A stretch of 64,000 bases of DNA from Mucilaginibacter sp. L294 (GTDB lineage Bacteria > Bacteroidota > Bacteroidia > Sphingobacteriales > Sphingobacteriaceae). The translations under genes were made by a program, and so were the position numbers. The stretch spans positions 1 through 64,000 of the forward strand of contig NZ_LGEK01000015.1 of assembly GCF_001636615.1 (NCBI RefSeq), in the 5' to 3' direction. Positions 11,631 through 40,725 of the stretch are shown here, piece by piece (within the stretch, counting starts at the first letter, position 1; each line of letters starts with the position of its first letter). The notes under the pieces are model-generated. The model did no database searches and was not told the DNA's origin. It worked only from the letters and a program-made list of their open reading frames with translations.

Positions 11631-12980
11631 ATGAAACTAAAAACTACTCTGTTAAAATTATTACTTTTTGCGTTTGTTGCCGTGCTTGCCGCGTGCGGTA
11701 AAAGCTCACCCGTAACGTATGATTTACCCCAACTTGTAACTTATGATGTTGTTATCGACCCTACATCTACCATAGCATGGACAGGGGGGGTAATCACAAA
11801 CAGTGTACCTGTAACAGCCTATGGCGTTTGCTATAGTACTACCAATAGCGAACCTACTATTACCGATAGTAAAACAACAGAAACCATCAGTACATTTTTG
11901 TTTGGCAGCAAACTTAAAGGGCTCTCTTTAAATACGGTATATTACGTAAGAGCTTATGGAACCAACTCGTCAGGTAACACCGGTTATGGTAACGTGGTAC
12001 AGTTTAAAACAGGTGGTGGTATAGCCGACGCATACGGAACGGTAAGTACCATTGCAGGCTCGGCCGCGGGTTATGAAAACAACACCGGTACGGCAGCTTT
12101 ATTTAACCGCCCCACTGCTGTTGCAACCGATGCAGCAGGTAATATTTACGTTGCCGATTCTTACAACTCAGTTATCAGGAAAATAACCCCTGGTGGTGTA
12201 ACTACTACGGTTGCCGGTACCGGTACTTTTGGATATACGGACGGCCCTGCCGATAAAGCGCAATTTTATGTGCCATCGGGCCTGGTAATTGATGCCACCG
12301 GAAATATCTTTGTAGCAGACCTGGGTAATAATATTATCAGGAAAATAACCCCTGCCGGTGTTGTAAGCAGCTTTGCAGGCAATGGTTCGTCAGGCTCAGG
12401 CGATGGCACCGGAAGTGCTGCAACGTTTAGCGGCCCGGCTGGTATAGCTATGGATGCTAACGGGAATTTTTATGTTACGGATAGCAATAATAACCTTATC
12501 AGAAAAATCACCCCTGCGGGCGTTGTAACAACAGTTGCCGGTAACCGCGTGGGTGCCTATACAAATGGTATTGGTACGGCCACATCTTTTAACAAACCCA
12601 CAGGTATAGCATTTGATGCTGCCGGTAATATGTATGTTGCCGAAGCGGCTAACAATGCCATCAGGAAAATAACAAAGGATTATACAGTAACCACATTTGC
12701 CGGTGGGGTAGATACCGCGGCACTTAAACTGGGCAGCCCCCAGGATTTGAAAATAGATGCTAATAACAACGTTTATATTACAGATGCTAACGGCCGAGTG
12801 CTTAAAGTAAATAAGGATAGGATATTTAGTGTTGTAGCAGGTAAAGCATCAACAGGCACTACAGATGGTGATGGCAACACAGCTTTGTTTAATGGCCCTA
12901 AAGGTATAGCGTTAGATGCGCAAGGCAATATCATTATTGCCGATTATAATAATAACCGGATACGAAAGATTGTTCAATAG
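11631..12980 (+). CDS. NHL-repeat beta-propeller lipoprotein
   Basis: A 449-residue protein with a lipoprotein signal (FVAVLAACGKSS, lipid Cys about 22). A fibronectin-like beta domain over roughly 30-128 ends YVRAYGTNSSGNTGYGNVVQF. Then come five or six NHL repeats, each with phrases such as DAAGNIYVADSYNSVIRKITPGG, forming a beta-propeller (about 135-449). Such proteins are probably anchored to the outer membrane and bind carbohydrate or protein ligands. A strong terminator follows, so the gene is monocistronic. It sits before the PUL regulator but has its own termination and need not be part of that locus. Confidence 0.85.
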   Translation: MKLKTTLLKLLLFAFVAVLAACGKSSPVTYDLPQLVTYDVVIDPTSTIAWTGGVITNSVPVTAYGVCYSTTNSEPTITDSKTTETISTFLFGSKLKGLSLNTVYYVRAYGTNSSGNTGYGNVVQFKTGGGIADAYGTVSTIAGSAAGYENNTGTAALFNRPTAVATDAAGNIYVADSYNSVIRKITPGGVTTTVAGTGTFGYTDGPADKAQFYVPSGLVIDATGNIFVADLGNNIIRKITPAGVVSSFAGNGSSGSGDGTGSAATFSGPAGIAMDANGNFYVTDSNNNLIRKITPAGVVTTVAGNRVGAYTNGIGTATSFNKPTGIAFDAAGNMYVAEAANNAIRKITKDYTVTTFAGGVDTAALKLGSPQDLKIDANNNVYITDANGRVLKVNKDRIFSVVAGKASTGTTDGDGNTALFNGPKGIALDAQGNIIIADYNNNRIRKIVQ

Positions 12981-13135: not shown

Positions 13136-15694
13136 ATGATAAGAAAAGATAAAATTTTATTGCTGCTGCCCCAGGCATATAAAATAGTGTTTCTTTTGCT
13201 GATGTTGTTGCCTGCTGTTAAAGGTAAAGCACAAGGGTTACAGTTCAATTCGAACGACAGCTTAATGAGCCAGCGTACCTCATATGTTGTTTTTGCTAAA
13301 GAAACACCTACGTTTAACAATCACCTGTCCATTAGTTTCGATTTGTCTTTATGGGATAACGACCACTTAGGCTATGTATTCAACATAATAGATGCAAAAA
13401 GCAATTCATACAGCTTAACTTATATTTATAATTACAATGGGTCGCCAACCTTAAATTTTAATATTGATAGTAAAAGCAATAAGATAGAGATACCACTTAG
13501 CCTGGCCCAGTTAAAAAAGCGCAAGTGGATAAAAATTAAGGCCGATATCGATCTGAAGAATAATACGGTAGTCTTTTTAGTAAATGGCAAATGGTACAAG
13601 GCCCGCGATTTTGGGTTTGAAAGCAGTATAACGCCAAAAATCACCTTCGGCAAAAACCCGCACTACTCTGATGTGCCTAAAATGGCAATAAAAAACCTGG
13701 TTATTAATGATGACAGCAAAAGTTACTCTTTCCCGCTAAATGAGTGGAAGGGGAAAAATGTACATACCGCCGATGGCGATGTGCTGGGAGCTGTAGACCA
13801 CCCCGTGTGGCTTATTAACGAATCATATTTTTGGACGCCAAAGTTTGAAAGGCATTTTAATGAAGTTGCCGGGTTAAACTTTGATGTAAACCAGCAAACC
13901 CTGTTTATGTACCAAACAGATTCGCTGATAATTTATAACGCTCAGGGCGGCAATACTACAAGCAAAGCGTATAAAAACAAACTGCCTGTTAAGCTTTTGC
14001 TTGGTAAAAGCATCATCAACAATAAGCAAAACAAGTGTTATGTGTATGAGGTGCAGCCACCCGATTCATTGCACAGTATAGCGTCGCTTGATCTGAACAC
14101 TTTAGAGTGGCAGCATGTTGGCAAAGGTTTTATAAAAGAACAAAGGCACCACCACAATATCTTTTTTGATAAGGATCAGGCTAACATCTATCTTTTTGGC
14201 GGGTACGGTTCATTCTCATACCATAAAGATTTTCTTAAGTATGAGCAGGCTACCGATAGTTGGAAAAAGGTTGCTTTTACCGGCGATACGATAACCCCTC
14301 GTTTCTTCTCGGGGAGCAGCCAGGCAGATGAGAATAATGAAGTGTATATATTTGGTGGTTATGGTAATCAATCGGGCAACCAGATAGTTGGTGGTACCCA
14401 TTTTTATGACTTGTATAGGGTTAATTTAACCAAACATACCATAAAAAAATGCTGGGAAATTACCCCCAACGAAGAGCCGTTTGTATCGGCAAATAACCTC
14501 GTCATATCAAAGGATAAAAAACACTTTTACGCTTTATGCTACCCGCACGAAAAACCCAAAACTAACCTGCGGTTATACAAGTTCTCTATTAAAGATGGCA
14601 CGTATGAGGTGGTGAGCGGCACTATCCCGGTTGCATCTGAAAGAATTGAAAGTGATTTTAACCTATTTTATAACCCTAAGCAGGACGCGTTTTATTGTAC
14701 CGCGCAGGAGTTTACCTCCCCCTTGCAATCAACAGTAAAGATCTATGCACTTACCGGTACGCCAGTAAGCCAACAGGCATATTTAGCCTCGCAACAGCCT
14801 GATAAGCCCAAGTTTAATAAGGCCTATATATACCTTCTACTGTTTGTGATATTTGCAGCTGGTAGCGCATGGTATTTTATAAAAAAGAAAAAGCGGCAGG
14901 CCCCAATTATTGATATTGATAGTGAAATAGCAGCTGATTTTTATACTCCGAAAAAAGAAACAGATAAAAAGCCCAACGCGGTTTATTTGCTTGGCGAATT
15001 TACCGTGTTTAGTAAAAACGGCCGGGATATAACTTACCTGTTTAGCCCCAAAATAAAGCAGTTGTTTATACTGATTCTGCTAAACAGTAAGGATGAGCAG
15101 GGAGTTGTTTCCAAAAAGATATCTACAACGTTATGGCCCGATAAAGAGGTTGTAAAAACCAAAAATATAAAAGGGGTTACCATTAATCACCTCAGGAGCA
15201 TTATTGCTGATATTGATGGTATAGAACTAACTTTTTTAAATGATACCTATTGCTTTAAACTAAGCAATACCTTTTTCTGCGATTACTTTTTAGTTAACGA
15301 TGCAATAGCCAGTGTACACCAGCATACTGTAACTGCCGGGCAGTTTATAACGGAGAATTTTGACCTGTTTGCACGTGGGGGATTATTACAACAAGTACCC
15401 GAGACCTGGCTTGATGATGTTAAACTGAATTTTGAAGAAACACTTGCCGGGGTCATCTTACCCGAACTTCAAAAGATCTATGACGACGGCGATCATAAGA
15501 AAGCGCTTGAGTTATCGCGCGTAGTATTGAGCATAGACCCGTTTAGCGATGGCGCGTTAAAGTACAAGTTAAAATCCTTGCGCAAAATAAAGGGGATTGA
15601 CTATGCTAAAAAGGTATATGATGAGTTTGTAGCCGAATATCACAAATCATTAGGGGGCGAATACCCTATTCATTTCGACAAGATCTGTAAGTAA
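13136..15694 (+). CDS. Membrane-spanning one-component regulator: kelch-like sensor with SARP/BTAD-like output domain
   Basis: An 852-residue multidomain protein. A hydrophobic signal or anchor (about 16-32, then KGKAQ) leads to a LamG-like beta domain (about 35-215) and a kelch-type propeller (about 225-550) with repeats such as IYLFGGYGSFS and VYIFGGYGNQ. A single transmembrane helix (about 562-580) precedes KKKKR, placing the C-terminus in the cytoplasm. The cytoplasmic part starts VYLLGEFTVFSKNG (about 613), continues as a winged-helix-like domain (to about 715) and ends in a TPR-like helical region resembling BTAD (about 745-850), with VVLSIDPFSDGALKYKL. It should sense an extracytoplasmic ligand and bind DNA directly, without a histidine kinase. 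It lies 297 bp upstream of susC. Domain order is seen; DNA binding and target are inferred. Confidence 0.75.
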   Translation: MIRKDKILLLLPQAYKIVFLLLMLLPAVKGKAQGLQFNSNDSLMSQRTSYVVFAKETPTFNNHLSISFDLSLWDNDHLGYVFNIIDAKSNSYSLTYIYNYNGSPTLNFNIDSKSNKIEIPLSLAQLKKRKWIKIKADIDLKNNTVVFLVNGKWYKARDFGFESSITPKITFGKNPHYSDVPKMAIKNLVINDDSKSYSFPLNEWKGKNVHTADGDVLGAVDHPVWLINESYFWTPKFERHFNEVAGLNFDVNQQTLFMYQTDSLIIYNAQGGNTTSKAYKNKLPVKLLLGKSIINNKQNKCYVYEVQPPDSLHSIASLDLNTLEWQHVGKGFIKEQRHHHNIFFDKDQANIYLFGGYGSFSYHKDFLKYEQATDSWKKVAFTGDTITPRFFSGSSQADENNEVYIFGGYGNQSGNQIVGGTHFYDLYRVNLTKHTIKKCWEITPNEEPFVSANNLVISKDKKHFYALCYPHEKPKTNLRLYKFSIKDGTYEVVSGTIPVASERIESDFNLFYNPKQDAFYCTAQEFTSPLQSTVKIYALTGTPVSQQAYLASQQPDKPKFNKAYIYLLLFVIFAAGSAWYFIKKKKRQAPIIDIDSEIAADFYTPKKETDKKPNAVYLLGEFTVFSKNGRDITYLFSPKIKQLFILILLNSKDEQGVVSKKISTTLWPDKEVVKTKNIKGVTINHLRSIIADIDGIELTFLNDTYCFKLSNTFFCDYFLVNDAIASVHQHTVTAGQFITENFDLFARGGLLQQVPETWLDDVKLNFEETLAGVILPELQKIYDDGDHKKALELSRVVLSIDPFSDGALKYKLKSLRKIKGIDYAKKVYDEFVAEYHKSLGGEYPIHFDKICK

Positions 15695-15725
15695 TTCTTT
15701 TCCAGTGCTTATATAATTAAATAAG

Positions 15726-15740
15726 TATCCGTTTCGGATA
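15726..15740. promoter_or_regulatory. Short perfect palindrome after the regulator gene
   Basis: TATCCG-TTT-CGGATA is a perfect 6-bp-arm inverted repeat 32 bp after the regulator stop. The T content that follows is modest, so it could be a weak terminator or an operator half-site pair. Confidence 0.4.
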
Positions 15741-15759
15741 ATTTATTTCCTTAATAAAC

Positions 15760-15880
15760 GGGTTAAAATACGGCGGTTAATGAAATTTTAACTGTATTAA
15801 CCCCTTTTTTAACCCTTATTTTAATACACTCCCATCTATACTTGTGTGCCGGTAAAAGCAACGTGCATTAAGGGTTAACC
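15760..15880. promoter_or_regulatory. Cluster of GGTTAA motifs upstream of susC
   Basis: Five copies of GGTTAA occur within 121 bp: plus strand at 15761-15766 and 15775-15780, minus strand (TTAACC) at 15797-15802 and 15809-15814, and a palindromic GGTTAACC at 15873-15880. The first four form a symmetric pair of pairs. A candidate -7 box, TATACTTG (15837-15844, one mismatch to TAnnTTTG), lies inside the cluster, about 148 bp before the preferred susC start. The arrangement suits an operator, possibly for the regulator encoded just upstream. Confidence 0.5.
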
Positions 15881-15991
15881 ATCCCCCTGCATATAGCCGG
15901 TGTTATTATAAACCAAGTTTAAACCAATTTACCTATGGATGAAATTTTTACCTATTGTGGTGAATGCCGTGGCATTTACTATAGTGTAAAA

Positions 15992-18900
15992 ATGAAAAAG
16001 GCAGTGCAGTTTTGCATTACGTCGTTTTTGTTTTTATTGATGTGCAGCTCAGCCTTTGCACAAAGCAAACCAGTTACGGGAACCGTATCTGACGATGCCG
16101 GCGCCTTGCCCGGGGTTACCGTGAAAATTAAAGGCTCGGATGTTGGTACGGTAACCGATGTTAATGGGAAGTACTCGCTAAACGCGGCCTCGGGGCAAAC
16201 GCTTATTTTTTCGTTTGTTGGTTACGCCAACCAGGAGGTAGCCATTACCACTCAGCAAAACGTTAATGTAAAGTTAGCGCAAAACTCTTCCTCATTAAAC
16301 GAGGTGGTGGTAGTGGGTTACGGTACACAAAAGAAAGCTACTGTTACCGGGGCCATCGCGTCGGTAAGCAACAGCGAAATTGTTAACACCAAAAACGAGA
16401 ACGTTTTAAACTCGTTAACCGGTAAAGTAGCCGGTTTGCGTGTTACACAAAACTCTGCCGAACCGGGGTCATTCGATAACTCATTTAGCATTCGCGGGTT
16501 TGGCGATCCGCTGGTTGTGATTGATGGTATCCCCCGCGATAATATTACCCGCCTTGATCCTAACGATATCGAAAGTGTATCGGTACTGAAAGATGCATCG
16601 GCAGCTATTTACGGTGTGCGTGCAGCCAACGGTGTAATATTGGTTACCACCAAAAAAGGGAAAAAGGGGTCGCTTGAACTAAATTATTCTGGCACTTATG
16701 GTTTCCAGGTACCTTCGGGCCTGCCAAAAGCAGTAGGCGCAATTGATTATATGACTCTGGTTAACGAGCAGCTATTGCACAACGTTAGCGGTGGCCAGGT
16801 AAAATATTCCCAGACTGATTTCGACGCGTATAGAAATGGCAGCAGGGTAAGTACAGATTGGTACACTCCCGTTATAAAAAGCAGCGTTCCGCAATCACAG
16901 CATAACCTTAATGCTACCGGTGGTAACGAAAATACCCAATACTTTATCAGTATGGGTATCACCAATCAGGACGGCTTTCTGCGCAGTGGCGACCTTAATT
17001 ATAAAAGGTACAACCTCCGGTCAAACCTATCTACCAGGATAAATAAAAACCTTACGGTTGATCTGAACCTGAATGCGACTATGGATCAAAAGAACCAACC
17101 ATATCAGGACGCATGGAACATCATCAGATCGTTTTGGAGGCAGATCCCTACCGAACCTATTTATGCCAATAACAATCCCGATTACCTGCTTAAAGGTACC
17201 GTTGATGGTACAAACCCGATAGCGCTTTCAAATTCTGATGTAAGCGGTTACAAAGTGTACAACAATAAGTGGTTCCAGTCGCAGGTATCTGCTACCTACA
17301 CTGTGCCATCTGTGCCCGGTTTAAGCGCCAAAGGTTTATTTAGCTATGATTATTATAACTCAAGTAACAGGTTATACCAAAAAGCATATAACCAATATAC
17401 ATATAACGAACAAGACGATAGCTACCCGGCAACAGCATACCAAACGCCGGCTACCTTTAGGCGCGAGTTTTTTGAACGGCCTTCAACTTTAACCCAGCTG
17501 TCTTTAAACTACGACCACAGCTTTGGTAACCATAGTTTTACCGGTTTGCTGATGTATGAAGAAAGTAACCGCCAGCAGGATAATTTTTATGCTCAGCGCG
17601 AATTGGCTTTAGCTGTCGATCAGTTGTTTTCGGGTAGTGCTACCAACCAGGTAGGATCGGCTAACTCGGGTGATATTTACAACTATGTAAATAAATCTAT
17701 TATTGGCCGTGTAAACTATAACTACAAATCTAAATACCTTGCCGAGTTCAGTTTCAGGAACGATGGGTCATCAAGGTTTTCGCCGCTTAAACAATGGGGC
17801 TTTTTCCCTGCGGGATCAATAGGATGGAGGATCTCTCAAGAAGATTTCTGGAAAAATTCATCTGCCCTGTCATTCATAAACGACCTGAAATTGCGTGCAT
17901 CATACGGTAAAGTAGGTGACGACTCGGCTTTGGCTTACCAGTTTTTAACCGGTTATCGCTACCCATCAAATGGCGACAGTAATCAGTTGCCTCCGGGTTC
18001 TGTTTTCGACGGTACTTTTGTCAATGGCGCGCAAAGCCTGGGTATTGCCAACCCCAACTTAACCTGGTTTAATGCCGAAACTTACAACATCGGTGTTGAT
18101 CTTGAAGCATGGAACGGATTATTAGGTGCAACGGTTAACGTTTTCAGGCGAGACAGAACGGGACTGTTAGGTACCCAGGCATTAACCCTTCCGGGTGTAG
18201 CCGGCGCCGACCTTCCGCAGGAAAACCTGAACAGCGACCGCACGCAAGGTTTTGAGGTAGAACTTAGCCACCGCAACCACTTTGGCGCATTCAATTATTT
18301 TGTAAAAGGAAACCTTGCCTTTAGCCGTACAAAAAACCGTACGGTTATCAGAGCAGCTTCGGGTAACTCGCAAGACAACTGGCATGACAATAGCAACGAT
18401 CGCTGGAACAATATCTATTGGGGACAGGGTGCTGCTGGTCAGTTTCAAAACTATCAGGATATCTTAAACAGCACGCAGTTTGTATCACGTAACGCGGTAG
18501 TAGGCGATTATCAATATGAAGACTGGAACGGCGATGGTATAATCGACGATAAAGACAAGCATCCTATAGCTTACAACAGCGCACCCTTAACCCAGTTTGG
18601 TTTAACGCTTGGCGGCTCATACAAAGGGTTTGATTTTAATACTGTGTGGCAGGGCGCTACAGGTGTAACTGTTTCATACATCGAACAACTGAACATACCA
18701 CTTTGGGGTGGAGGCAGTGCGCTAACCCAGTTTATGGATAGGTGGCACCCGGCCGATCCTAATGCAGATCCTTACAATCCAAATACCGTATGGGTTCCCG
18801 GTAAATATGCCTTAACAGGCACTACAGCCGATGTTAACTCTATGTTCAATATCCAGGATGCTTCTTACGTAAGGTTAAAATCTGCCGAGATAGGTTATTC

Positions 18901-19081
18901 TATTTCGCCAAACTTCGCTAAAATAATAGGTATAAAAGGGGCAAGGATATTTGTGAATGGTTACAACATATTAACCTTCACCGGCTTAAAGTACCTCGAT
19001 CCGGAACATCCGTCAAGTACTTACGGTTACTTGTATCCACTCAACAAGACATTCTCTTTAGGCGTAAATGTTAAGTTATAA
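15992..19081 (+). CDS. SusC/RagA-family TonB-dependent outer-membrane transporter
   Basis: A 1029-residue protein from the ATG at 15992, where MKKAVQFCITSFLFLLMCSSAFAQ-type signal sequence begins; an upstream in-frame ATG at 15935 would put 19 polar residues before the signal and is disfavoured. A carboxypeptidase-D-like domain (about 25-105) is followed by the SusC signature VVVGYGTQKKATVTGAI, a plug domain with DPLVVIDGIPRD, and a 22-strand barrel to a C-terminal aromatic-rich end. No DUF4974-type extension for anti-sigma signalling is present. It imports oligosaccharides with the SusD partner encoded 13 bp downstream. The neighbouring GH92 and GH76 suggest manno-oligosaccharides. Confidence 0.95.
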   Translation: MKKAVQFCITSFLFLLMCSSAFAQSKPVTGTVSDDAGALPGVTVKIKGSDVGTVTDVNGKYSLNAASGQTLIFSFVGYANQEVAITTQQNVNVKLAQNSSSLNEVVVVGYGTQKKATVTGAIASVSNSEIVNTKNENVLNSLTGKVAGLRVTQNSAEPGSFDNSFSIRGFGDPLVVIDGIPRDNITRLDPNDIESVSVLKDASAAIYGVRAANGVILVTTKKGKKGSLELNYSGTYGFQVPSGLPKAVGAIDYMTLVNEQLLHNVSGGQVKYSQTDFDAYRNGSRVSTDWYTPVIKSSVPQSQHNLNATGGNENTQYFISMGITNQDGFLRSGDLNYKRYNLRSNLSTRINKNLTVDLNLNATMDQKNQPYQDAWNIIRSFWRQIPTEPIYANNNPDYLLKGTVDGTNPIALSNSDVSGYKVYNNKWFQSQVSATYTVPSVPGLSAKGLFSYDYYNSSNRLYQKAYNQYTYNEQDDSYPATAYQTPATFRREFFERPSTLTQLSLNYDHSFGNHSFTGLLMYEESNRQQDNFYAQRELALAVDQLFSGSATNQVGSANSGDIYNYVNKSIIGRVNYNYKSKYLAEFSFRNDGSSRFSPLKQWGFFPAGSIGWRISQEDFWKNSSALSFINDLKLRASYGKVGDDSALAYQFLTGYRYPSNGDSNQLPPGSVFDGTFVNGAQSLGIANPNLTWFNAETYNIGVDLEAWNGLLGATVNVFRRDRTGLLGTQALTLPGVAGADLPQENLNSDRTQGFEVELSHRNHFGAFNYFVKGNLAFSRTKNRTVIRAASGNSQDNWHDNSNDRWNNIYWGQGAAGQFQNYQDILNSTQFVSRNAVVGDYQYEDWNGDGIIDDKDKHPIAYNSAPLTQFGLTLGGSYKGFDFNTVWQGATGVTVSYIEQLNIPLWGGGSALTQFMDRWHPADPNADPYNPNTVWVPGKYALTGTTADVNSMFNIQDASYVRLKSAEIGYSISPNFAKIIGIKGARIFVNGYNILTFTGLKYLDPEHPSSTYGYLYPLNKTFSLGVNVKL

Positions 19082-19094
19082 AAAAGATAAGATC

Positions 19095-21008
19095 ATGAAA
19101 AAATATACATACATCATATTATGCCTTTTAGTGTGCTGGACAACAGCATGTAAAAAGTTGGACGTACCACCAATTAACGTAGTACAGGATAAAGATATAT
19201 TTACCAGTTCAGGTGGTATACAAGCCTACATGGCGCGTATCTATAGCGAATTACCAATTGAAGATTTCAGATATTCACCGCAACGGGGGTTAAACTTTTT
19301 CTGGATAATAAGCCCATTCCCCGCCGTTACCGGCGAAGCCCTGAGCCGCGACCAGACAGGCGCCATGCAGGAAAACGTAGACGAATCGCCCTGGGGCGAC
19401 TCTTATAAACTGATAAGGGATGTAAACTACTTTTTAGAAAACCTGCCAAAATATGCATCCACTTTCACACCTGAGCAGGTTAACTCCTGGTTGGGCGAAG
19501 CACGGTTTATACGTGCGGCAACTTATTTTGCACTGGTAAAACGTTACGGCGGCGTACCTATTGTTGATAAGGTACTACAAATCCCTGCATCGAATGTGGA
19601 TGACCTGAATATACCGCGCTCGTCAGAAGAAGCCGTGTATGATTACATTGCTGCCGATTTGGATTTTGCTTACACCAACATGGGCGAAACCAACCAGGCA
19701 GGCCGTGCCAATAAATATGTGGCGGCGGGTTTTAAATCGCGGGCTATGCTTTACGCGGGTTCTATTGCCAAATACAACCAAATAACATTGGTTGACCCAT
19801 CCGGCAACAGGGTTTGCGGTATCTCCGCTACAAAAGCGATAACTTATTTTAAAGCGGCTTATGATGCTGCTGTTTTGTTAGAAAGTAAATACAGCCTTTA
19901 TAAAAACAGCTGGAAAGCCGGCGATAAAGTCGCCCAATATCAAAACTTTATTGATATGTTTTTTGATAAGAATAGCTCAGAAAATATTTTTGTAAGGCAA
20001 TACCATTACCCCGAATCTGTACACGGGTATGATGCATACAATGTTCCGCGCCAGCTAATGGGTGGTAACGGTTATTCATCAGAAGTTAACCCGACTTTGA
20101 ATTTTGTGGAGATGTTTGATGGCCTGCCTAAAAATGCCGATGGCACCATCAAAACCATGACAGCCGGTAAATACGACCTGTATACCAATACGATGGACCT
20201 TTTTGCCAATGCCGAACCAAGGTTAAGGGCAACGGTTATCCTTCCGGGCGATGTGTTTAAAGGCCAAAGCATCGAAATTCGTCGTGGTATCTACACTGGC
20301 AGTTCGGCAGGTGGTATAAGCCCACTTTTGCCTGCTGGGGCAACCGGGAATTATCCCACAGCTAATATTGTGCAATCATCAAACGCTACGCAAACTCCTT
20401 ATACATTGCCAGACGGTTCAAAAATGAACCCCGCGGGTTTAAGCGGCGTGTTTAGCGGTGATGGAACAGCTGCTATATCTGGTTTCTCGATACGTAAATG
20501 GCTGGCCCCTGATAAGCCAACGTCAGAAGTATTAGAGAACCGTTCAGACCAAACCTGGATAGAGTTACGTTACGCCGAAGTATTACTGAACCGTGCCGAA
20601 GCTGCTTATGAGCTGAATGTATTAGGCCAAAATGACAAGAACTATCTGCAGGATGCTTTTGCAGCTATTAACCAGATCCGCGAGCGTGCGGGTGCCGATA
20701 TGTTGGCCAGTGCAGCCAACCTGAACAGTATTGACATCGTGCGTAAAGAGCGTAGAAAAGAACTGGGTTTCGAAAATAAAACCTGGTGGGATATGAGGAG
20801 ATGGAGAATTGCTGATAAAGAGCAAAACTCAACCATTTACAAAATTTTAATGCCTTTCTACTCTGCTAATGATAAGAAATACTTTTTTGATGCACGTACC
20901 GACGAAAGAAACGCACGCTACACATTTGATGTACGCTGGTATTACGAGCAGATCCCGAATGGTGAGATCCAGAAAAGTCAGAAGTTAATTCAAAACCCGG
21001 GCTATTAA
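19095..21008 (+). CDS. SusD/RagB-family glycan-binding outer-membrane lipoprotein
   Basis: A 637-residue protein from the ATG at 19095; an earlier in-frame ATG at 19068 overlaps the susC end and would displace the signal. The lipoprotein signal ends CWTTACKKLD. The helical SusD fold is shown by SWLGEARFIRAATYFALVKRYGGVPIV in the N-terminal half and by EVLLNRAEAAYELN, INQIRERAGAD and the late VRKERRKELGFENKTWWDMRRW block. It forms the lid of the SusC barrel and binds the incoming glycan at the cell surface. It is 11 bp from the next lipoprotein gene. Confidence 0.95.
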   Translation: MKKYTYIILCLLVCWTTACKKLDVPPINVVQDKDIFTSSGGIQAYMARIYSELPIEDFRYSPQRGLNFFWIISPFPAVTGEALSRDQTGAMQENVDESPWGDSYKLIRDVNYFLENLPKYASTFTPEQVNSWLGEARFIRAATYFALVKRYGGVPIVDKVLQIPASNVDDLNIPRSSEEAVYDYIAADLDFAYTNMGETNQAGRANKYVAAGFKSRAMLYAGSIAKYNQITLVDPSGNRVCGISATKAITYFKAAYDAAVLLESKYSLYKNSWKAGDKVAQYQNFIDMFFDKNSSENIFVRQYHYPESVHGYDAYNVPRQLMGGNGYSSEVNPTLNFVEMFDGLPKNADGTIKTMTAGKYDLYTNTMDLFANAEPRLRATVILPGDVFKGQSIEIRRGIYTGSSAGGISPLLPAGATGNYPTANIVQSSNATQTPYTLPDGSKMNPAGLSGVFSGDGTAAISGFSIRKWLAPDKPTSEVLENRSDQTWIELRYAEVLLNRAEAAYELNVLGQNDKNYLQDAFAAINQIRERAGADMLASAANLNSIDIVRKERRKELGFENKTWWDMRRWRIADKEQNSTIYKILMPFYSANDKKYFFDARTDERNARYTFDVRWYYEQIPNGEIQKSQKLIQNPGY

Positions 21009-21019
21009 TAACAAAAAAC

Positions 21020-21775
21020 ATGAAAAAGATATTATATACACTTGCTATTTGCGCAGTTGCCTTAACAACCAGCTCTTGCAGTAAACTCGACAATCAGGAA
21101 GCCCCTTCCGAAACATTAACAGGAAGCGTGGTTGATGCAGGTACAGGTAAAACAGTACAAACAGAAAATGGCAGCGGCACCCGTATAAAGCTGTTGGAAA
21201 CAAGCTGGAGCGATAACCCAACGCCTTTCTACATTGCTTCTATGCAGGATGGTACATTTAATTATACTAAACTTTTCCCGGGGACTAACAAAATAAGTGC
21301 CGAGGGCCCGTTTGTGCCTATGGTGCAAACAGATGCTTCCGGGGCTACTACAGTAGATAAAAGCCAGACAGTTCAAATAAAAGGTACCACAACCGTTAAA
21401 TTTTCGGTTGAGCCATTCCTAAGGATTGAATGGGTTGGCGAACCGGTAATTAATGCCGATGGCACTATAACTGCCAGCTTTAAATTTACACGAGGTACAA
21501 ATGACCCTGCCTTTCAGCAGGATATAAGTGATGTGCAGTTGTTTGTAAACTCTAACAAGTTTGTGGGCAATAATAATTTCGATAACCGTTATTCGCCAAA
21601 AATTGAATACAACGGTTCTGACGGTAACGCCCAGGTTGGGCAAACCCTAACATTTACCACCATTGGCGGCCCGCTGCCAACAAATAGGGAATACTTTATA
21701 AGGATAGGCGGCCGCACAAACTATGGCCTTAAATACTATAACTATACCGATGTTAAAGTAGTAACTGTCCCTTAA
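21020..21775 (+). CDS. DUF3823 lipoprotein, candidate surface glycan-binding protein
   Basis: A 251-residue lipoprotein (signal TTSSCSKLD, lipid Cys about 20). The N-terminal beta domain (about 30-130) reads like a carboxypeptidase-regulatory fold, LTGSVVDAGTGKTVQ, and the second domain (about 131-250) ends FIRIGGRTNYGLKYYNYT. This matches the DUF3823 family, regularly encoded after susD. In other PULs the third lipoprotein is a surface glycan-binding protein, so ligand capture is the likely role. It is followed by a perfect hairpin before the enzyme genes. Confidence 0.82.
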   Translation: MKKILYTLAICAVALTTSSCSKLDNQEAPSETLTGSVVDAGTGKTVQTENGSGTRIKLLETSWSDNPTPFYIASMQDGTFNYTKLFPGTNKISAEGPFVPMVQTDASGATTVDKSQTVQIKGTTTVKFSVEPFLRIEWVGEPVINADGTITASFKFTRGTNDPAFQQDISDVQLFVNSNKFVGNNNFDNRYSPKIEYNGSDGNAQVGQTLTFTTIGGPLPTNREYFIRIGGRTNYGLKYYNYTDVKVVTVP

Positions 21776-21790
21776 TAACAGCCAAATAAT

Positions 21791-21826
21791 ACCTGCTTAA
21801 GCGTACTTAATTGTGCTTAAGCAGGT
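21791..21826. repeat. Perfect intercistronic hairpin (12-bp arms) in the PUL
   Basis: ACCTGCTTAAGC (21791-21802) and GCTTAAGCAGGT (21815-21826) are perfect complements around a 12-base loop. It falls in the 67-bp gap between the binding-protein genes and the first enzyme gene. There is no T-tract, so it looks like an mRNA processing or stability element that could set unequal expression of the two halves of the operon. Confidence 0.75.
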
Positions 21827-21842
21827 TAATAAACAAAATCCT

Positions 21843-24023
21843 ATGAAACAACTTTTATTATCCTGCTGCCTGGCAGCGCTAACTGTTAGTGCCCATGCCC
21901 AGGCAACAAAACCGGCCCAGTTAAAGCAAAAAACCGCTTTCCAGACCAGCAGCCCGTGGATGCCCGAAATTGATGTACGATCAGACATCGCCATTGTTTA
22001 CGGTGTAAATGACAGGCCGGGGATGACATTTGAGCAGCGCGTAAAAACCTGGCGCGACCATGGTTACCAGGCCCAGTTTATGACAGGTATAGCCTGGGGC
22101 GATTACAAGGATTATTTTTTAGGCAAGTGGGATGGCATTAACCATTTGGGTGTTGGCCAGGTTACGCAAAAAGGCGATACCATATTTCATGGTAGGGATA
22201 TGCCTTATGTAGTGCCGGTAAAATCATTCATCGAGTATATGAAAACCGCGGTAATCAAACGTGTTATTGATGCGGGTATCACCGACATTTTTTTAGAAGA
22301 GCCCGAGTTTTGGGCGAGGGCGGGTTACAGTGCGCCGTTTAAAGAAGAATGGCAAAAATATTATGGCTTCCCATGGAAACCGCAGGATGCATCGGCCGAG
22401 AATACCTATCTGTCCAGCAAGCTTAAATACCACCTGTATTACGAGGCTATAAAAGAAACATCCAACTACGCCAAAGCCTATGGCAAAAGCAAGGGCAAAA
22501 ATATCAAGGTGTTTATAGCCACCCACTCGCTGGTTAACTATTCATCATGGCAAATTGTTAGCCCGGAGGCCAGCCTGGCATCACTACCCGGTATTGACGG
22601 CTATATAGCACAGGTATGGACAGGCACCTCGCGCGAGCCGACCTATTTTGACGGACAGAAGAAAGAACGTGTATTTGAGAACGCTTTTTTAGAATACGGT
22701 TCAATGGTATCCATGACAGCCCCAACAGGCCGCAAAATGTTTTTCCTGACAGACCCGATTGAAGACTGGCCACGTGATTGGGCCGATTATAAAAAGAACT
22801 ACCAGGCAACCTTCACCGCAAAACTATTATACCCAACCGTATCCGATTATGAAGTAATGCCATGGCCGGAACGGATCTACACGCATCCGTATAAAGTGGC
22901 TAATAGCAACGAGAAAGTGCTGATACCGCAATATTATTCAACCCAAATGCAGGTAATGGTAAATGCTTTGAATAGTATGCCGGCATCACCCAACAGGGTA
23001 ACGGGTGTAAATGGTATTGGCGTATTAATGAGCAATTCGCTGATGTTCCAGCGTTTCCCAACCCATAACGGGTTCGAGGATCCGCAGTTCTCTAATTTCT
23101 ACGGGCAAACTTTGCCATTGTTAAAACGTGGTGTACCGGTACAAACCGTCCATATGGAGAACCTTACCTATGCGGCTACTTTAAAAAATATAAAGGTGTT
23201 GGTGGTGAGCTATTCTAATATGAAGCCCGTATCGGCCGAAATTCACACGGCTTTGGCAAAGTGGGTTAAAGAGGGCGGTGTTTTAATTTACACCGGCCGG
23301 GATGACGATCCATACCAATCGGTAATGGAATGGTGGAACACCAAGGGTAACAAGTTTACCGCGCCGTCGCAGCATTTGTTTAAACTGTTAAATATTAATG
23401 CAGTATCTGGCAAGCAAAAATTTAGTGTTGGCAAAGGCACGGTGTACATTGTTAGGCAAAATCCTAAAGAGTTTGTTTTAGAAGGCAATGCCGATTCGAA
23501 GTTTGTTGACCTGGTAAAACAAGGTTATGAAGCCGATGCAAAAGCAGGCAAACTAACCTTTAAAAATAGCCTGTACCTGCAACGCGGCCCTTACGATGTA
23601 GTATCGGTAATGGACGAAAACCCCGATAGCAAACCATATACTATAAAAGGACCGGTTATCGACCTGTTTGACCCGCAACTACCGGTATTAGCTGAAAAGG
23701 TTGTTAACCCTGGCGAGCAATCATTATTATATAACGTTAACCGTGTTGCCAATAAAACCAAACCACAGGTTTTGGCTGCCGCAGCAAGGGCTTACAACGA
23801 AGTGATCCAGGCTAAAAACTATTCATTCGTGGTAAAAAGCCCTGTAAAAACACTGAATAGTATGCGTGTATTACTGCCGGCAAAACCTAAAACTACAAAG
23901 GTTACCGATAGTAAAGGGCAAGAAGTTACCGATGTTAAAACATCGTGGGATGCATCCTCAAACACCGTGTACCTGGGTTTCCCAAATGATCCCGAAGGAA
24001 TTAAAGTTAGTTTAAGTTGGTAA
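21843..24023 (+). CDS. Putative secreted glycoside hydrolase of unassigned family (TIM barrel plus amidotransferase-like domain)
   Basis: A 726-residue protein from the ATG at 21843 with signal peptide CCLAALTVSAHAQ; an in-frame GTG at 21813 lies inside the upstream hairpin. The first 400 residues look like a (beta/alpha)8 barrel: RSDIAIVYGV, YQAQFMTGIAWG, DAGITDIFLEEPEFW, IKVFIATHSL and GIDGYIAQVW could be successive strands. An acidic cluster at Glu152, Glu153 and Glu155 would follow one strand. The next domain (about 400-520; ALKNIKVLVVSYSNMKPVS, WVKEGGVLIYTGRDD) resembles the class I amidotransferase-like trimerisation domain of GH42-type enzymes. A beta-rich C-terminus follows. I cannot place it in a named CAZy family. 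Its position before GH92 implies action on the same glycan. Confidence 0.6.
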   Translation: MKQLLLSCCLAALTVSAHAQATKPAQLKQKTAFQTSSPWMPEIDVRSDIAIVYGVNDRPGMTFEQRVKTWRDHGYQAQFMTGIAWGDYKDYFLGKWDGINHLGVGQVTQKGDTIFHGRDMPYVVPVKSFIEYMKTAVIKRVIDAGITDIFLEEPEFWARAGYSAPFKEEWQKYYGFPWKPQDASAENTYLSSKLKYHLYYEAIKETSNYAKAYGKSKGKNIKVFIATHSLVNYSSWQIVSPEASLASLPGIDGYIAQVWTGTSREPTYFDGQKKERVFENAFLEYGSMVSMTAPTGRKMFFLTDPIEDWPRDWADYKKNYQATFTAKLLYPTVSDYEVMPWPERIYTHPYKVANSNEKVLIPQYYSTQMQVMVNALNSMPASPNRVTGVNGIGVLMSNSLMFQRFPTHNGFEDPQFSNFYGQTLPLLKRGVPVQTVHMENLTYAATLKNIKVLVVSYSNMKPVSAEIHTALAKWVKEGGVLIYTGRDDDPYQSVMEWWNTKGNKFTAPSQHLFKLLNINAVSGKQKFSVGKGTVYIVRQNPKEFVLEGNADSKFVDLVKQGYEADAKAGKLTFKNSLYLQRGPYDVVSVMDENPDSKPYTIKGPVIDLFDPQLPVLAEKVVNPGEQSLLYNVNRVANKTKPQVLAAAARAYNEVIQAKNYSFVVKSPVKTLNSMRVLLPAKPKTTKVTDSKGQEVTDVKTSWDASSNTVYLGFPNDPEGIKVSLSW

Positions 24024-24130: not shown

Positions 24131-26407
24131 ATGAAAAAATTATTATTAGTTGCTCTTTTTGCTCTCCCGGTAATTGCATCGGCACAGGTTAACAAAACAA
24201 ACCTTGCCGACCTGGTTAACCCGCTGATGGGTACCGATTCCAAACCCTCGTTATCTAACGGGAACACTTACCCCGCCATAGCATTACCCTGGGGCATGAA
24301 TTTTTGGACACCTCAAACAGGCAAAATGGGCAGCGGATGGCAATACACCTACAATGCCGATAAATTAGTTGGCTTTAAACAAACGCACCAACCATCGCCC
24401 TGGATGAATGATTATGGGCAATTCTCTATCTTCCCCGAAACTGGTAAGATAAGGGTTGATGAAAGCGAACGCGCCAGTTGGTACTCGCATAAGGCAGAAA
24501 TTTCCAAACCCTATTATTACAGCGTTTACCTGGCCGATTATGACATTACAACCGAAATTACGCCGACAGAGCGTGCCGCCAGCTTTAAGTTCACGTTCCC
24601 CAAAAGCGATAGCTCGCACATTGTAATAGATGCTTTTGATAAAGGATCGTACGTGAAAATAATCCCCGGCGAGAATAAAATAGTAGGCTACAGCACCCGT
24701 AACAGCGGCGCAGTGCCCGGGAATTTCAAGAACTATTTTGTTATATATATAGATAAGCCATTCAAAAATGCCTCGACATGGCACAATAAAGATATTGAGG
24801 ATGGCAAGCTGGAATACACCGGCGACCATGCAGGCGCGGTGATCAGCTTTAAAACTACCAAAGGCGAAGCCGTTAACTTGCGCGTTGCATCATCTTTCAT
24901 CAGTATTGAGCAGGCAGAGCTTAATTTAAAGCGCGAGTTGGGTAAGGAAAGCTTTGAGGCCACCAAGCAAAAGGCCAAAGCCATCTGGAACAATACCTTA
25001 AGCCGCTTAACAGTTGATGGCGGTACGGTTGACCAAACCCGCACATTTTACTCGTGCCTGTACCGCATGCTTTTCTTCCCTAATAAATTGTATGAGCTGG
25101 ATGCTAAAGATCAGATAGTTCATTATAGCCCGTACAACGGTAAAGTACTGCCGGGGTACATGTTTGGAGGCACAGGCTTTTGGGATACCTTCCGGGCCTT
25201 GTATCCATTCCTGAACCTGGTTTATCCGTCCATCAATAAAGAAATGCAGGCCGGTTTAGTGAACGATTACAAAGAAGGCGGCTGGTTACCCGAATGGAGC
25301 AGCCCCGGTTATGCCGATGTAATGGTGGGTAATAACTCCGCATCTGTAGTATCTGAAGCCTATTTAAAAGGCGGCCGCGGATATGATATCAACACCCTAT
25401 ACCAGGCATTGCTGCATGGCGCTAATAATACTGGGCCCGGCGCGGCAGGCAGGCGTGGGGTTGATTATTATAACACATTAGGTTATGTGCCTTATGATGT
25501 AAAAATAAACGAAAATGCAGCACGTACATTGGAGTACGCTTATGACGATTTTGCTATTTACAAGTTGGGGAAAGCTTTAGGTCGCCCGGCGTCAGAAACC
25601 GAGATCTACAAAAAGCGCAGCCTGAACTATAAAAACCTGTTCGACCCGCAAACCGGATTGATGAGGGGTAAAAATAAGGATGGTAAATTCCAAACTCCGT
25701 TTAATCCATTTAAATGGGGCGATGCCTTTACTGAGGGTAACAGCTGGCACTATACCTGGAGCGTTTTTCATGACGTACAAGGGCTGATAGGCCTGATGGG
25801 TGGCAACCAAAAGTTTGTAAACAAACTCGATTCGGTGTTCATTCTTCCGCCGGTATTTGATGATAGTTATTATAACAGCGTAATTCACGAAATACGCGAA
25901 ATGCAGATAGCCGGCATGGGGCAGTACGCACATGGTAACCAGCCCATACAACACATGGTATATCTGTACAACTACGCCAGCCAACCCTGGAAAACCCAAT
26001 TACACGTGCGCGATGTAATGGATAAAATGTACAAACCAACACCAGATGGCTACTGCGGCGATGAAGATAACGGGCAAACATCGGCCTGGTATGTATTTTC
26101 ATCGATGGGCTTTTACCCGGTAACACCGGCCAGCGACCAATATGTGCTTGGTGCGCCACTATTTAAAAAAGTAACGGTTACGCTGGAGAATGGTAAAACC
26201 ATCAGCATTAATGCACCTAATAACAACGCGCAAAACAGGTATGTAAGCAGCTTAAATGTTAACGGAAAACCTTACTCGTTTAACTGGCTCAGTCATTCGG
26301 CTTTGTTAAAGGGCGCTACACTTAATTTTAATATGTCGGCACAGCCAAATAAACAAAAGGGCATTAAAGCTGCTGATGCACCCTACTCATTATCTAACGA
26401 AAAATAA
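24131..26407 (+). CDS. GH92 family alpha-mannosidase
   Basis: A 758-residue enzyme with a signal peptide (about 1-19, ending VIASAQ). It has the GH92 N-terminal block VNPLMGTDSKPSLSNGNTYP and the (alpha/alpha)6 catalytic domain. Glu535 in FTEGNSWHYTW is the expected general acid, and Asp644 and Asp646 in CGDEDNGQTSAWYVFSSMGFYPV match the paired aspartates of the catalytic base region. GH92 enzymes are calcium-dependent exo-alpha-mannosidases acting on alpha-1,2, 1,3, 1,4 or 1,6 links; the linkage cannot be read here. A plain signal peptide without a lipid Cys points to the periplasm. It is 15 bp before GH76. Confidence 0.92.
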   Translation: MKKLLLVALFALPVIASAQVNKTNLADLVNPLMGTDSKPSLSNGNTYPAIALPWGMNFWTPQTGKMGSGWQYTYNADKLVGFKQTHQPSPWMNDYGQFSIFPETGKIRVDESERASWYSHKAEISKPYYYSVYLADYDITTEITPTERAASFKFTFPKSDSSHIVIDAFDKGSYVKIIPGENKIVGYSTRNSGAVPGNFKNYFVIYIDKPFKNASTWHNKDIEDGKLEYTGDHAGAVISFKTTKGEAVNLRVASSFISIEQAELNLKRELGKESFEATKQKAKAIWNNTLSRLTVDGGTVDQTRTFYSCLYRMLFFPNKLYELDAKDQIVHYSPYNGKVLPGYMFGGTGFWDTFRALYPFLNLVYPSINKEMQAGLVNDYKEGGWLPEWSSPGYADVMVGNNSASVVSEAYLKGGRGYDINTLYQALLHGANNTGPGAAGRRGVDYYNTLGYVPYDVKINENAARTLEYAYDDFAIYKLGKALGRPASETEIYKKRSLNYKNLFDPQTGLMRGKNKDGKFQTPFNPFKWGDAFTEGNSWHYTWSVFHDVQGLIGLMGGNQKFVNKLDSVFILPPVFDDSYYNSVIHEIREMQIAGMGQYAHGNQPIQHMVYLYNYASQPWKTQLHVRDVMDKMYKPTPDGYCGDEDNGQTSAWYVFSSMGFYPVTPASDQYVLGAPLFKKVTVTLENGKTISINAPNNNAQNRYVSSLNVNGKPYSFNWLSHSALLKGATLNFNMSAQPNKQKGIKAADAPYSLSNEK

Positions 26408-26422
26408 TTAGCACATCTACCT

Positions 26423-27544
26423 ATGAAAAAATTATTTTATGTTCTGCTAACCGGCGTGTTTATTACGGTAACGGGCTGCAGTAAAGGCTCGGAGAACAAA
26501 CCACCTGCGGTAAAACCCGATGGCCCGCAAACAACCGACCCTACATTTACCGAAGCTGATGCAACAACAGCTTACACGGCCTTCAATAAATACTATTATA
26601 ATCCAACAAAAAAGCTGTATTACAGTACCACCCTGCAAGACGGCCTTGGCGCTATATGGACACAGGCTATTTACTGGGATATGGCCATGAATGTTTATGA
26701 GCGTACCAAAGCCCCCGCACAGCTTACCATGGTTAATGATATTTACCAGGGTGGCTTTGACCAATACGATGGTTACAATTGGGATAACACCACCACCTGG
26801 TTTATTTATGACGACATGATGTGGTGGGTAATGGCTTTAGCCCGTGCCAACCAGATAACCGGCAATCAGGTGTATCTGCAAAAGGCCGTTGCCGGGTTTA
26901 ACCGGGTGTGGAACGGATCATACGATGCCGTTGACGGTGGGATGTTCTGGGATTTTCAGCATAGCGGCAAAAACGCTTGTATCAATTATCCAACGGTTAT
27001 TGCGGCTATGCGTTTGTATAAATTAACTGGCGATGCAAGTTATCTTACAAAAGCAAAATCGATATATACCTGGGCCAAAACTAATTTGATGGATGCCACC
27101 GGCCGCATAGCCGACCATAAAATTGGTAACAATGCGCCCGGCTATGAGGATTATACCTACAACCAGGGTACCGCTATTGGCGCGGCTATGGCTTTGTATA
27201 ACGAAACCAAGGACGATACCTACCTGAATGATGCCAAGTTAGTAGCCGATTATACCAAAACTAAAATGGGTACTAATGGCATTTTGCCCGCCGAAGGAGA
27301 TTTTAACGAGCAGGGTGTATTGAAAGCTATTTTTGCGCAGTACATCATGCAGCTGATAACCGATGGTAAACAAAGCCAGTATTTGGATTGGGTTAAAACC
27401 AACATTAACACCGGCTGGAACAACCGCGATAAGGACCGCAACCTTACCTGGCGTAATTATGCGTTACCTGCACCGAGGGGTTCCATGCAATCGTACGAAA
27501 GCAGCAGCATTGTAACCTTTATTCAGTTGTATTTTAAAAAGTAA
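26423..27544 (+). CDS. GH76 family endo-alpha-1,6-mannanase lipoprotein
   Basis: A 373-residue lipoprotein (signal TVTGCSKGSE, lipid Cys about 19). The (alpha/alpha)6 catalytic domain carries the GH76 Asp pair, Asp130 and Asp131 in WFIYDDMMWWVMALARA, and further family segments such as AIYWDMAMNVYE, DGGMFWDFQHSGKNACINYPT and YTYNQGTAIGAAMALY. GH76 enzymes cut alpha-1,6-mannan backbones internally. The lipid anchor suggests a surface enzyme that makes fragments for the SusC/SusD pair. It is the last gene of the PUL, followed by a strong terminator. Confidence 0.92.
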   Translation: MKKLFYVLLTGVFITVTGCSKGSENKPPAVKPDGPQTTDPTFTEADATTAYTAFNKYYYNPTKKLYYSTTLQDGLGAIWTQAIYWDMAMNVYERTKAPAQLTMVNDIYQGGFDQYDGYNWDNTTTWFIYDDMMWWVMALARANQITGNQVYLQKAVAGFNRVWNGSYDAVDGGMFWDFQHSGKNACINYPTVIAAMRLYKLTGDASYLTKAKSIYTWAKTNLMDATGRIADHKIGNNAPGYEDYTYNQGTAIGAAMALYNETKDDTYLNDAKLVADYTKTKMGTNGILPAEGDFNEQGVLKAIFAQYIMQLITDGKQSQYLDWVKTNINTGWNNRDKDRNLTWRNYALPAPRGSMQSYESSSIVTFIQLYFKK

Positions 27545-32973: not shown

Positions 32974-35670
<2,697 letters not shown>

Positions 35671-40131: not shown

Positions 40132-40725
40132 GTGAGCAACCAAAACGAATATAATTTAGCTGATCGGCACCTGGTAACAGCTGTGTTGAGAGGTGACCAT
40201 AACGCTTTTGGTATAATCATTAAACAAACAGAGCGACTGGTTGCACAGATGACCTTTAAAATGATTAGTAGCCCCGGCGACCGTAAGGATATTGCCCAGG
40301 ATGTTTACCTGAAGGTGTTCAAAAATTTGCCGGGCTTTAAATTCCAGTCTAAACTCTCTACCTGGATTGCCCAGATCACCTATAATACCTGTCTGAATTA
40401 CTTAAGGAAAAAGAAACTTGTATTATTAGACAATTTCGGGAAAGACGGGGAAATGCCAGAAGACCACACGAGCGAAGATGCGGAGAATGGCACTGAAGAA
40501 ATACTGTTTGGTAAAGAACTGGCCGGTATCCTCAATTCGGAGATAGACCAGCTTAAACCTCTTTATAAAATGCTTGTATCCCTATACCACCAGGAAGAAT
40601 TAAGCTATGCGGAGATTGCCGAAATTACCTCCCTGCCCGAGGGGACAGTTAAAAGCTATATATTCAGGGCCAGAAGAACACTAAAAGAAAATATATTACT
40701 AAAATATAAAAGGAACGAGTTATGA
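40132..40725 (+). CDS. ECF-type RNA polymerase sigma factor
   Basis: A 197-residue sigma-70 family factor starting at GTG; the nearest ATG (40113) is out of frame. Region 2 includes DRKDIAQDVYLKVFKNLPGFKFQSKLSTWIAQITYNTCLNYLRKKK (split motif about 49-96). Region 4 is YHQEELSYAEIAEITSLPEGTVKSYIFRARRTLKE-like (about 145-185). The stop overlaps the anti-sigma start (ATGA), a typical sigma/anti-sigma coupling. Together with the membrane protein and TonB receptor downstream it forms a likely cell-surface-signalling unit. Confidence 0.92.
   Translation: MSNQNEYNLADRHLVTAVLRGDHNAFGIIIKQTERLVAQMTFKMISSPGDRKDIAQDVYLKVFKNLPGFKFQSKLSTWIAQITYNTCLNYLRKKKLVLLDNFGKDGEMPEDHTSEDAENGTEEILFGKELAGILNSEIDQLKPLYKMLVSLYHQEELSYAEIAEITSLPEGTVKSYIFRARRTLKENILLKYKRNEL

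Follow-up and report, generated by a model that had tools for sequence, protein, structure and literature searches.

The window analysed here, a stretch of 64,000 nucleotides, encodes on its forward strand a predicted kelch-SARP-like transmembrane regulator of 852 residues (13136-15694), in an intact reading frame that opens with an ATG at 13136 and whose stop codon ends at 15694. It is not a chance ORF, because relatives are found in 19 of the 60 genomes of a set of related bacteria and at 79 distinct loci of a named collection. A whole-protein AlphaFold2 model, built on a 34-sequence alignment (mean pLDDT 86.7), features in order a helix (residues 12-28), an all-beta domain, a beta-propeller, a second helix (562-586), a linker and a winged helix followed by a helical domain (614-852). 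The first helix lies in a putative signal peptide without a lipobox cysteine (residues 1-33; 13136-13234), and the all-beta domain spans residues 35-222 or thereabouts (13238-13801). The propeller (residues about 234-540; 13835-14755) consists of kelch repeats: the Pfam model PF24681 scores 63.4 bits against a cut-off of 50 in the window protein and matches all 34 aligned members, and structural alignment with solved kelch domains yields a best Z of 22.6. The 25-residue predicted helix at 562-586 (14819-14893) precedes the sequence KKKKR, which fits a single transmembrane helix with the C-terminus inside. The linker that follows (587-608) is modelled with low confidence and leads to a predicted winged helix of the OmpR type (residues about 614-710; 14975-15265) and a predicted BTAD-like TPR domain (residues about 716-852; 15281-15691). 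Domains of histidine kinases, receivers and AraC proteins found no match in Pfam and NCBIfam scans of the regulator that included the 34 aligned members. The initial annotation had described a signal or anchor, a LamG-like domain, a kelch propeller, one transmembrane helix and a winged helix plus TPR region. This layout agrees with the model, the N-terminal segment reading as a signal peptide; the LamG label holds only weakly, as Laminin_G_2 and Laminin_G_3 each match a single member of the 34 (E 0.0022 and 0.0049, respectively).

Searches by sequence gave nothing useful for the C-terminus; its identity is settled by its fold. For instance, phmmer against the PDB returned designed TPRs only, a 40-row profile of the region produced weak matches (best E 0.11), and Pfam and NCBIfam scans of the window protein's C-terminus found nothing beyond a weak TPR-lipoprotein match. 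Residues 605-852, modelled alone on a 40-row alignment, give a pLDDT of 94.5. In Foldseek searches, the PDB matches with E<=0.001 are six chains, all of which are Mycobacterium tuberculosis EmbR or Streptomyces coelicolor AfsR, aligned to residues 4-248 of the model with 12-16% identity over the structural alignments. Comparison with EmbR had been proposed at the outset as a check for a DNA-binding fold, and such a fold is indeed predicted. EmbR and AfsR reach Z-scores of 14.0-15.4 and the next rows at most 9.6, although mostly helical models without kin can reach a Z of about 14 and the Foldseek E-values therefore carry more weight. The models thus argue strongly for a SARP-like output module, in which a winged helix is joined to a BTAD-like TPR domain. 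Trp667 (model residue 63) is invariant in 40 of 40 rows and, when residues are simply counted along, falls at AfsR Trp74, to which it may correspond. AfsR Trp74 contacts DNA, according to the available excerpt of PMC10936776.

Pfam BTAD and Trans_reg_C models find no match in the window protein. Across 40 members, BTAD is the commonest Pfam match (12/40, best E 2.6e-5) and Trans_reg_C the second (7/40); when ten members were scanned singly, BTAD matched three, all below the 22.1-bit cut-off. BTAD matches alone were discarded as a poor test, since the model also rings in control genomes (6 of 14), which include E. coli and Methanosarcina. Although the protein would work like a SARP, we do not file it as one: its module sits at the C-terminus and is bound to the membrane, and the curated Pfam model has no match in the window protein. 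In AfsR and EmbR, an OmpR-type winged helix precedes the BTAD TPR fold, and the window module has the same order. In contrast, the module of SARPs (the AfsR SARP domain, DnrI, ActII-ORF4) is N-terminal and actinobacterial, whereas that of the window lies at the C-terminus behind a transmembrane helix, in a member of the Bacteroidota. The propeller also has weak NanM and mutarotase matches that stay below their cut-offs, so that the protein might be an enzyme or a binding protein of the kelch type whose TPR tail is fortuitous and which has no regulatory role. Given the high-confidence winged helix, the restriction of matches at E<=0.001 to SARP-type proteins and the conserved repeat described below, such a protein is extremely improbable.

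Downstream of the regulator, and on the same strand, Pfam scans identified genes for a SusC/RagA receptor with no STN domain found (15935-19081, with an in-frame alternative start at 15992), a SusD-like lipoprotein (19068-21008), a DUF3823 protein (21020-21775), a GH92 protein of the alpha-mannosidase family (24131-26407) and a GH76 protein of the endo-alpha-1,6-mannanase family (26423-27544). Between the DUF3823 and GH92 genes lies ORF736 (21813-24023), the product of which is a recurrent operon member of 736 residues without a Pfam or NCBIfam match. GH76 together with GH92 presumably points to fungal-type alpha-mannan, and the role of mannan as the signal is suggested from gene context, namely GH92, GH76 and GH99 neighbours. 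As the initial annotation stated, the regulator lies directly upstream of susC, and the polysaccharide utilization locus (PUL) holds neither a hybrid two-component system (HTCS) nor an ECF sigma/anti-sigma pair: a Pfam scan of the PUL genes, in which the 736-residue protein had no match at all, found no member of these families. The ECF sigma genes of the 64-kb window, at 40132 and 61059, are outside the PUL.

Relatives of the 736-residue protein are present in 20 further genomes of the 60, are 54-90% identical in full-length matches and are often encoded inside a mannan operon; the protein may represent a new family of carbohydrate-active proteins.

In Bacteroidota, the sensing of glycans is commonly attributed to SusR, HTCS or ECF systems (PMC3878776, available portion). 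SusR of Bacteroides resembles the window protein in layout, as it combines a periplasmic sensor, a membrane segment and a cytoplasmic DNA-binding domain, and activates the sus operons; its predicted sites, as described in the same portion of that source, are direct repeats at distances of 67 or 77 bp, versus three repeats in a 12-bp register here. HTCS proteins likewise consist of one polypeptide that bears a large sensor in the periplasm and, at one end, a DNA-binding part (PMC3878776, in part), but they have histidine kinase, receiver and AraC domains, none of which is matched by the window regulator. ECF sigma factors with FecR-type anti-sigma factors and an STN-SusC also control PUL operons (PMC3878776, in part), and they were found on an orthologue of the present operon in genome G001. 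These are different proteins, and no STN domain was found in the window SusC; a sigma70 gene and a FecR gene beside an STN-SusC were found at locus L235 and not in the PUL of the window. ToxR and CadC follow the same one-component logic, an OmpR-type winged helix being tethered by one transmembrane helix, but their DNA-binding end comes first, in the opposite order to the window regulator, and they have no BTAD and no kelch domain. Among the papers listed in open-access literature searches, we recognised none on a PUL regulator of SARP or BTAD type from Bacteroidota. The string "BTAD" in the accessible parts of three Bacteroidota-related papers turned out to be article numbers in reference lists and was discarded, and a raffinose paper contained none of five regulator terms.

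Our analysis newly identifies a triple heptameric direct repeat as a candidate operator, TTAACCCCTTTTTTAACCCTTATTTTAATAC (15797-15827), located 102 bp past the regulator stop codon and within the stretch (15695-15991) earlier proposed for a DNA-binding test. The element has the form TTAACCC-N5-TTAACCC-N5-TTAATAC, its heptamers occupying 15797-15803, 15809-15815 and 15821-15827 of the forward strand in a 12-bp register. A window scan allowing up to three mismatches finds this match alone (expected 0.02). Nine nucleotides after the third repeat lies TATACTTG (15837-15844), which we take to be a -7-like box by comparison with the Bacteroidota -7 consensus, assumed to be TAnnTTTG.

In the 60-genome set, all 19 genomes with a regulator match belong to the same genus, and 16 of them carry an orthologue of clade A (46% identity or more). 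The exact triple repeat is present once each in 15 of these 16 genomes and in none of the 44 others (Fisher p 3e-13; 1.7e-9 within the genus; phylogeny not corrected). The sixteenth genome (G032), which has the most divergent clade A orthologue (46%), features a variant third repeat (18/21) before GH92. Of the 15 genomes, 11 have the exact site after the regulator. In the remaining four (G013, G017, G027 and G031), the regulator lies elsewhere, about 720 kb from the operon in G013, and the site still stands before the orthologous SusC-SusD-DUF3823-ORF736-GH92 operon. The G020 site lies before the gene for the 736-residue protein, with no SusC between, and sites with 1-2 mismatches precede separate GH76 relatives in G026, G029 and G009; the G009 site, with two mismatches, occurs without a regulator match in a genome that is 58% complete. 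G001 has a site with 1-2 mismatches, apparently inside a coding sequence. The reversed pattern, used as a control, has one match in the 60 genomes at up to two mismatches (G014).

The operon and the regulator are usually found together, so that a different, unlinked regulator might bind the repeats, the kelch protein being merely co-inherited with the mannan operon. Against this, the repeat tracks the regulator even where the two are unlinked, and does so before different first genes (SusC, ORF736, GH92 and GH76). Moreover, the gene for the 736-residue protein occurs in 21 of the 60 genomes, comprising all 16 with a clade A regulator and five without (G001, G016, G019, G025 and G036), and in the 16-18 kb fetched from each of these five no repeat is found; their best scores, 14-16 of 21, are within the chance range (null maxima 16-17). 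G001 alone of the five keeps the whole orthologous operon, in the order of the window (SusC 60%, SusD 68%, DUF3823 55%, ORF736 75% and GH92 48% identity), and features a FecR-type anti-sigma gene and a sigma70-region-4 gene upstream and an STN domain on SusC. In G036, a FecR gene lies beside the SusC gene of a GH76-ORF736-GH92 locus, this SusC being 31% identical and without an STN match. G016, G019 and G025 have no orthologous SusC beside the gene and are weaker controls. The sister clade B, too, has a related but different repeat (see below). Mere co-inheritance, with a separate regulator binding the repeats, is improbable. Binding of the window regulator to the repeats at 15797-15827 is, as a reading of sequence patterns, well supported.

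Relatives of the regulator are encoded by 374 stretches of the named collection, from which 79 distinct loci were retained. Since loci of the 60-genome set and of the named contigs overlap, the PUL-linkage, period-scan and 45-promoter counts refer to distinct loci, whereas the shuffle comparison and the TTAA counts of distant loci include overlapping ones; the window itself is counted in the 45-promoter set only, and not in the period-scan or PUL-linkage counts. The homologue survey proposed initially bears out the linkage to PULs: a relative of SusC, GH92, GH76 or the 736-residue protein is encoded within the stretches fetched around 41 of 50 clade A and 30 of 37 clade B loci. The motif scan took in 61 of the 79 named loci, 48 of them of clade A. 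A site matching 18-21 of 21 positions was found at 39 of these 48, all of which have a SusC, ORF736 or GH92 gene after the regulator. The nine without a site (L099, L110-L114, L117, L123 and L139) have no such gene after it; L123 stops at the contig end, with GH76- and GH92-like genes on the regulator's other side.

Conservation averages 97% in the repeat columns of 45 distinct promoters, that of the window among them, versus 51-55% in the flanks; as TTAA was required when the promoters were picked, the fair measure is that of the CCC/TAC columns, 84-100%. The spacer between the third repeat and a TAnnnTTG box is 9 nt in 34 promoters and 8 nt in seven, and four have no such box. Counted from the -7-like box, the third repeat stands where a -33 element would be, and the regulator might hence repress the operon, with the glycan relieving repression. 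However, SARP sites consist of two or three heptamers and commonly overlap the -35 element (PMC10972967, available excerpt), and SARPs usually activate (PMC10972967 and PMC10936776, both in part), which makes repression quite improbable. In SARP sites, the 3' repeat lies 8 bp from the -10 element and the spacing is 11 or 22 bp (PMC10936776, in part). As a sequence pattern, clade A promoters match such sites in their heptameric direct repeats near -35 and in the distance from the last repeat to the promoter box, but the register is 12 bp in clade A and 11 bp in classical SARP repeats. Activation of the mannan operon is the reading that we adopt.

A quick tree built from 80 regulators sets off clade A by a branch with a support of 100 and clade B by one of 99. 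Clade B is a paralogous clade often found at GH92 loci, GH92 being present at 24 of 37 distinct loci. GH92 proximity was rejected as proof of function, as GH92 genes are numerous across the genus, with 10 in G000 and up to 19 per genome, and is kept as context. Searching for a clade B operator by exact 6-mer repeats gave no clear signal. The core of clade B was picked once promoters had been read, and is thus post hoc, with other periods and shuffles as controls: TTAA triples occur at period 11 at 19 of 37 distinct clade B loci (0-2 at other periods from 7 to 16) and at period 12 at 43 of 54 clade A loci (0-5 at other periods), and shuffled promoters give means of 0-0.35. The 54 clade A loci include L086-L089, unlinked operons with no regulator, which the 50 of the PUL-linkage count omit. 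The pattern TTAATSN5TTAATN6TTAAG has 20 sites in 14 of the 60 genomes, and its reverse has none in the 60; a clade B regulator lies at most 10 kb away from 14 of the 20 sites; a site is found in 11 of 15 genomes with a clade B regulator versus 3 of 45 others. Locus L058, representative of clade B, adds GH99, GH3, a GDSL esterase and a GH95-like protein. The window's own genome carries a clade B paralogue (L046, G000:C213), with GH92 nearby and a repeat in the 11-bp register before the next gene.

Three more distant regulators (L145-L147, from Coprobacter, Dysgonomonadaceae and Prevotellaceae, respectively) join the clade A side as a trio with a support of 88 and long branches. The Coprobacter regulator is 31% identical, and an 18/21 site precedes susC (0 of 200 null runs as good). 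The sites of L146 and L147 (17/21) are borderline, a score that 2 and 4 of 200 null runs, respectively, also reach. The scan found none near L140-L142, L144, L148 and L150-L153 (best 13-16 of 21). At the TTAA level, one of the 12 distant loci (L140-L142, L144-L148 and L150-L153) has the 12-bp triple and none the 11-bp triple; six of the 12 have a relative of SusC, GH92, GH76 or the 736-residue protein. At the Dysgonomonadaceae locus, a sigma-70 family gene (L146:6258-6887) lies divergently beside the regulator, with the borderline site between them.

The distribution of the regulator in the phylum is widespread but sparse. In genomes drawn evenly over the phylum, the window's own genome counted, full-length relatives (E<=1e-40) are found in 6 of 296 and module relatives (E<=1e-6) in 7 of 148. 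One weaker module match (L188) belongs to a protein that, by eye, starts like a classical SARP. Elsewhere, a homologue is split into two neighbouring frames in the propeller region (L178/L181; G188:C1:1152946-1155452), which is either a broken gene or an assembly error.

These data make it highly probable that the window protein spans the membrane as a one-component activator and controls an alpha-mannan PUL by a SARP-like output. The initial reading, that glycan sensing is coupled directly to transcription by one membrane protein, is supported by the predicted fold, the PUL linkage and the conserved repeats. The periplasmic kelch propeller and the all-beta N-domain would sense an oligosaccharide derived from alpha-mannan, or a PUL protein carrying one, and the signal would cross the single transmembrane helix to the cytoplasmic module. 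Protomers may then sit side by side on the three direct repeats, just upstream of the -7 box, and the bound regulator would recruit RNA polymerase, which SARPs contact together with sigma region 4 when they activate transcription, and turn on susC-susD-DUF3823-ORF736-GH92-GH76. With the same operator, the module might instead be freed from the membrane by regulated proteolysis and act as a soluble activator, in keeping with the low-confidence linker that separates the transmembrane helix from the winged helix; tethered one-component activators are known, and we consider release unlikely. By either route, a single membrane protein of a soil-living Bacteroidota very probably detects sugar on the outer side of the inner membrane and turns on the adjoining mannan-digestion operon, through a predicted DNA-binding part that resembles antibiotic regulators of Streptomyces in shape.

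One polypeptide would join a periplasmic sensor to an activator module of actinobacterial type, with a candidate operator readable from sequence. We think it reasonably probable that transmembrane kelch-SARP activators make up an additional class of PUL regulators in Bacteroidota, next to SusR, HTCS and ECF/anti-sigma systems, ranging from Sphingobacteriaceae and Chitinophagaceae to Flavobacteriaceae and Bacteroidales, using a 12-bp TTAACCC code in clade A, with traces to Coprobacter, and an 11-bp TTAATC/G code in the sister clade, located mostly at alpha-mannan loci and exchangeable for ECF sigma/FecR. The repeats are readable in dozens of related genomes, and target operons, including unlinked ones, should be predictable genome by genome. 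The 12-bp and 11-bp codes of the paralogues may offer a natural pair in which to examine how SARP-like modules recognise the spacing of repeats, and G001 appears to be a natural regulator swap on an orthologous operon.

Two other genes of the window were noted. The gene preceding the regulator (11631-12980) encodes an NHL-repeat protein with what we take to be a lipoprotein-like start, and a homologue with 54% identity lies beside the unlinked operon of L088. The reverse-strand gene at 32974-35622 passes the curated cut-offs of phosphoenolpyruvate-synthase models and also that of the rifamycin-inactivating phosphotransferase model NF041857 (1466.9 over a cut-off of 999).
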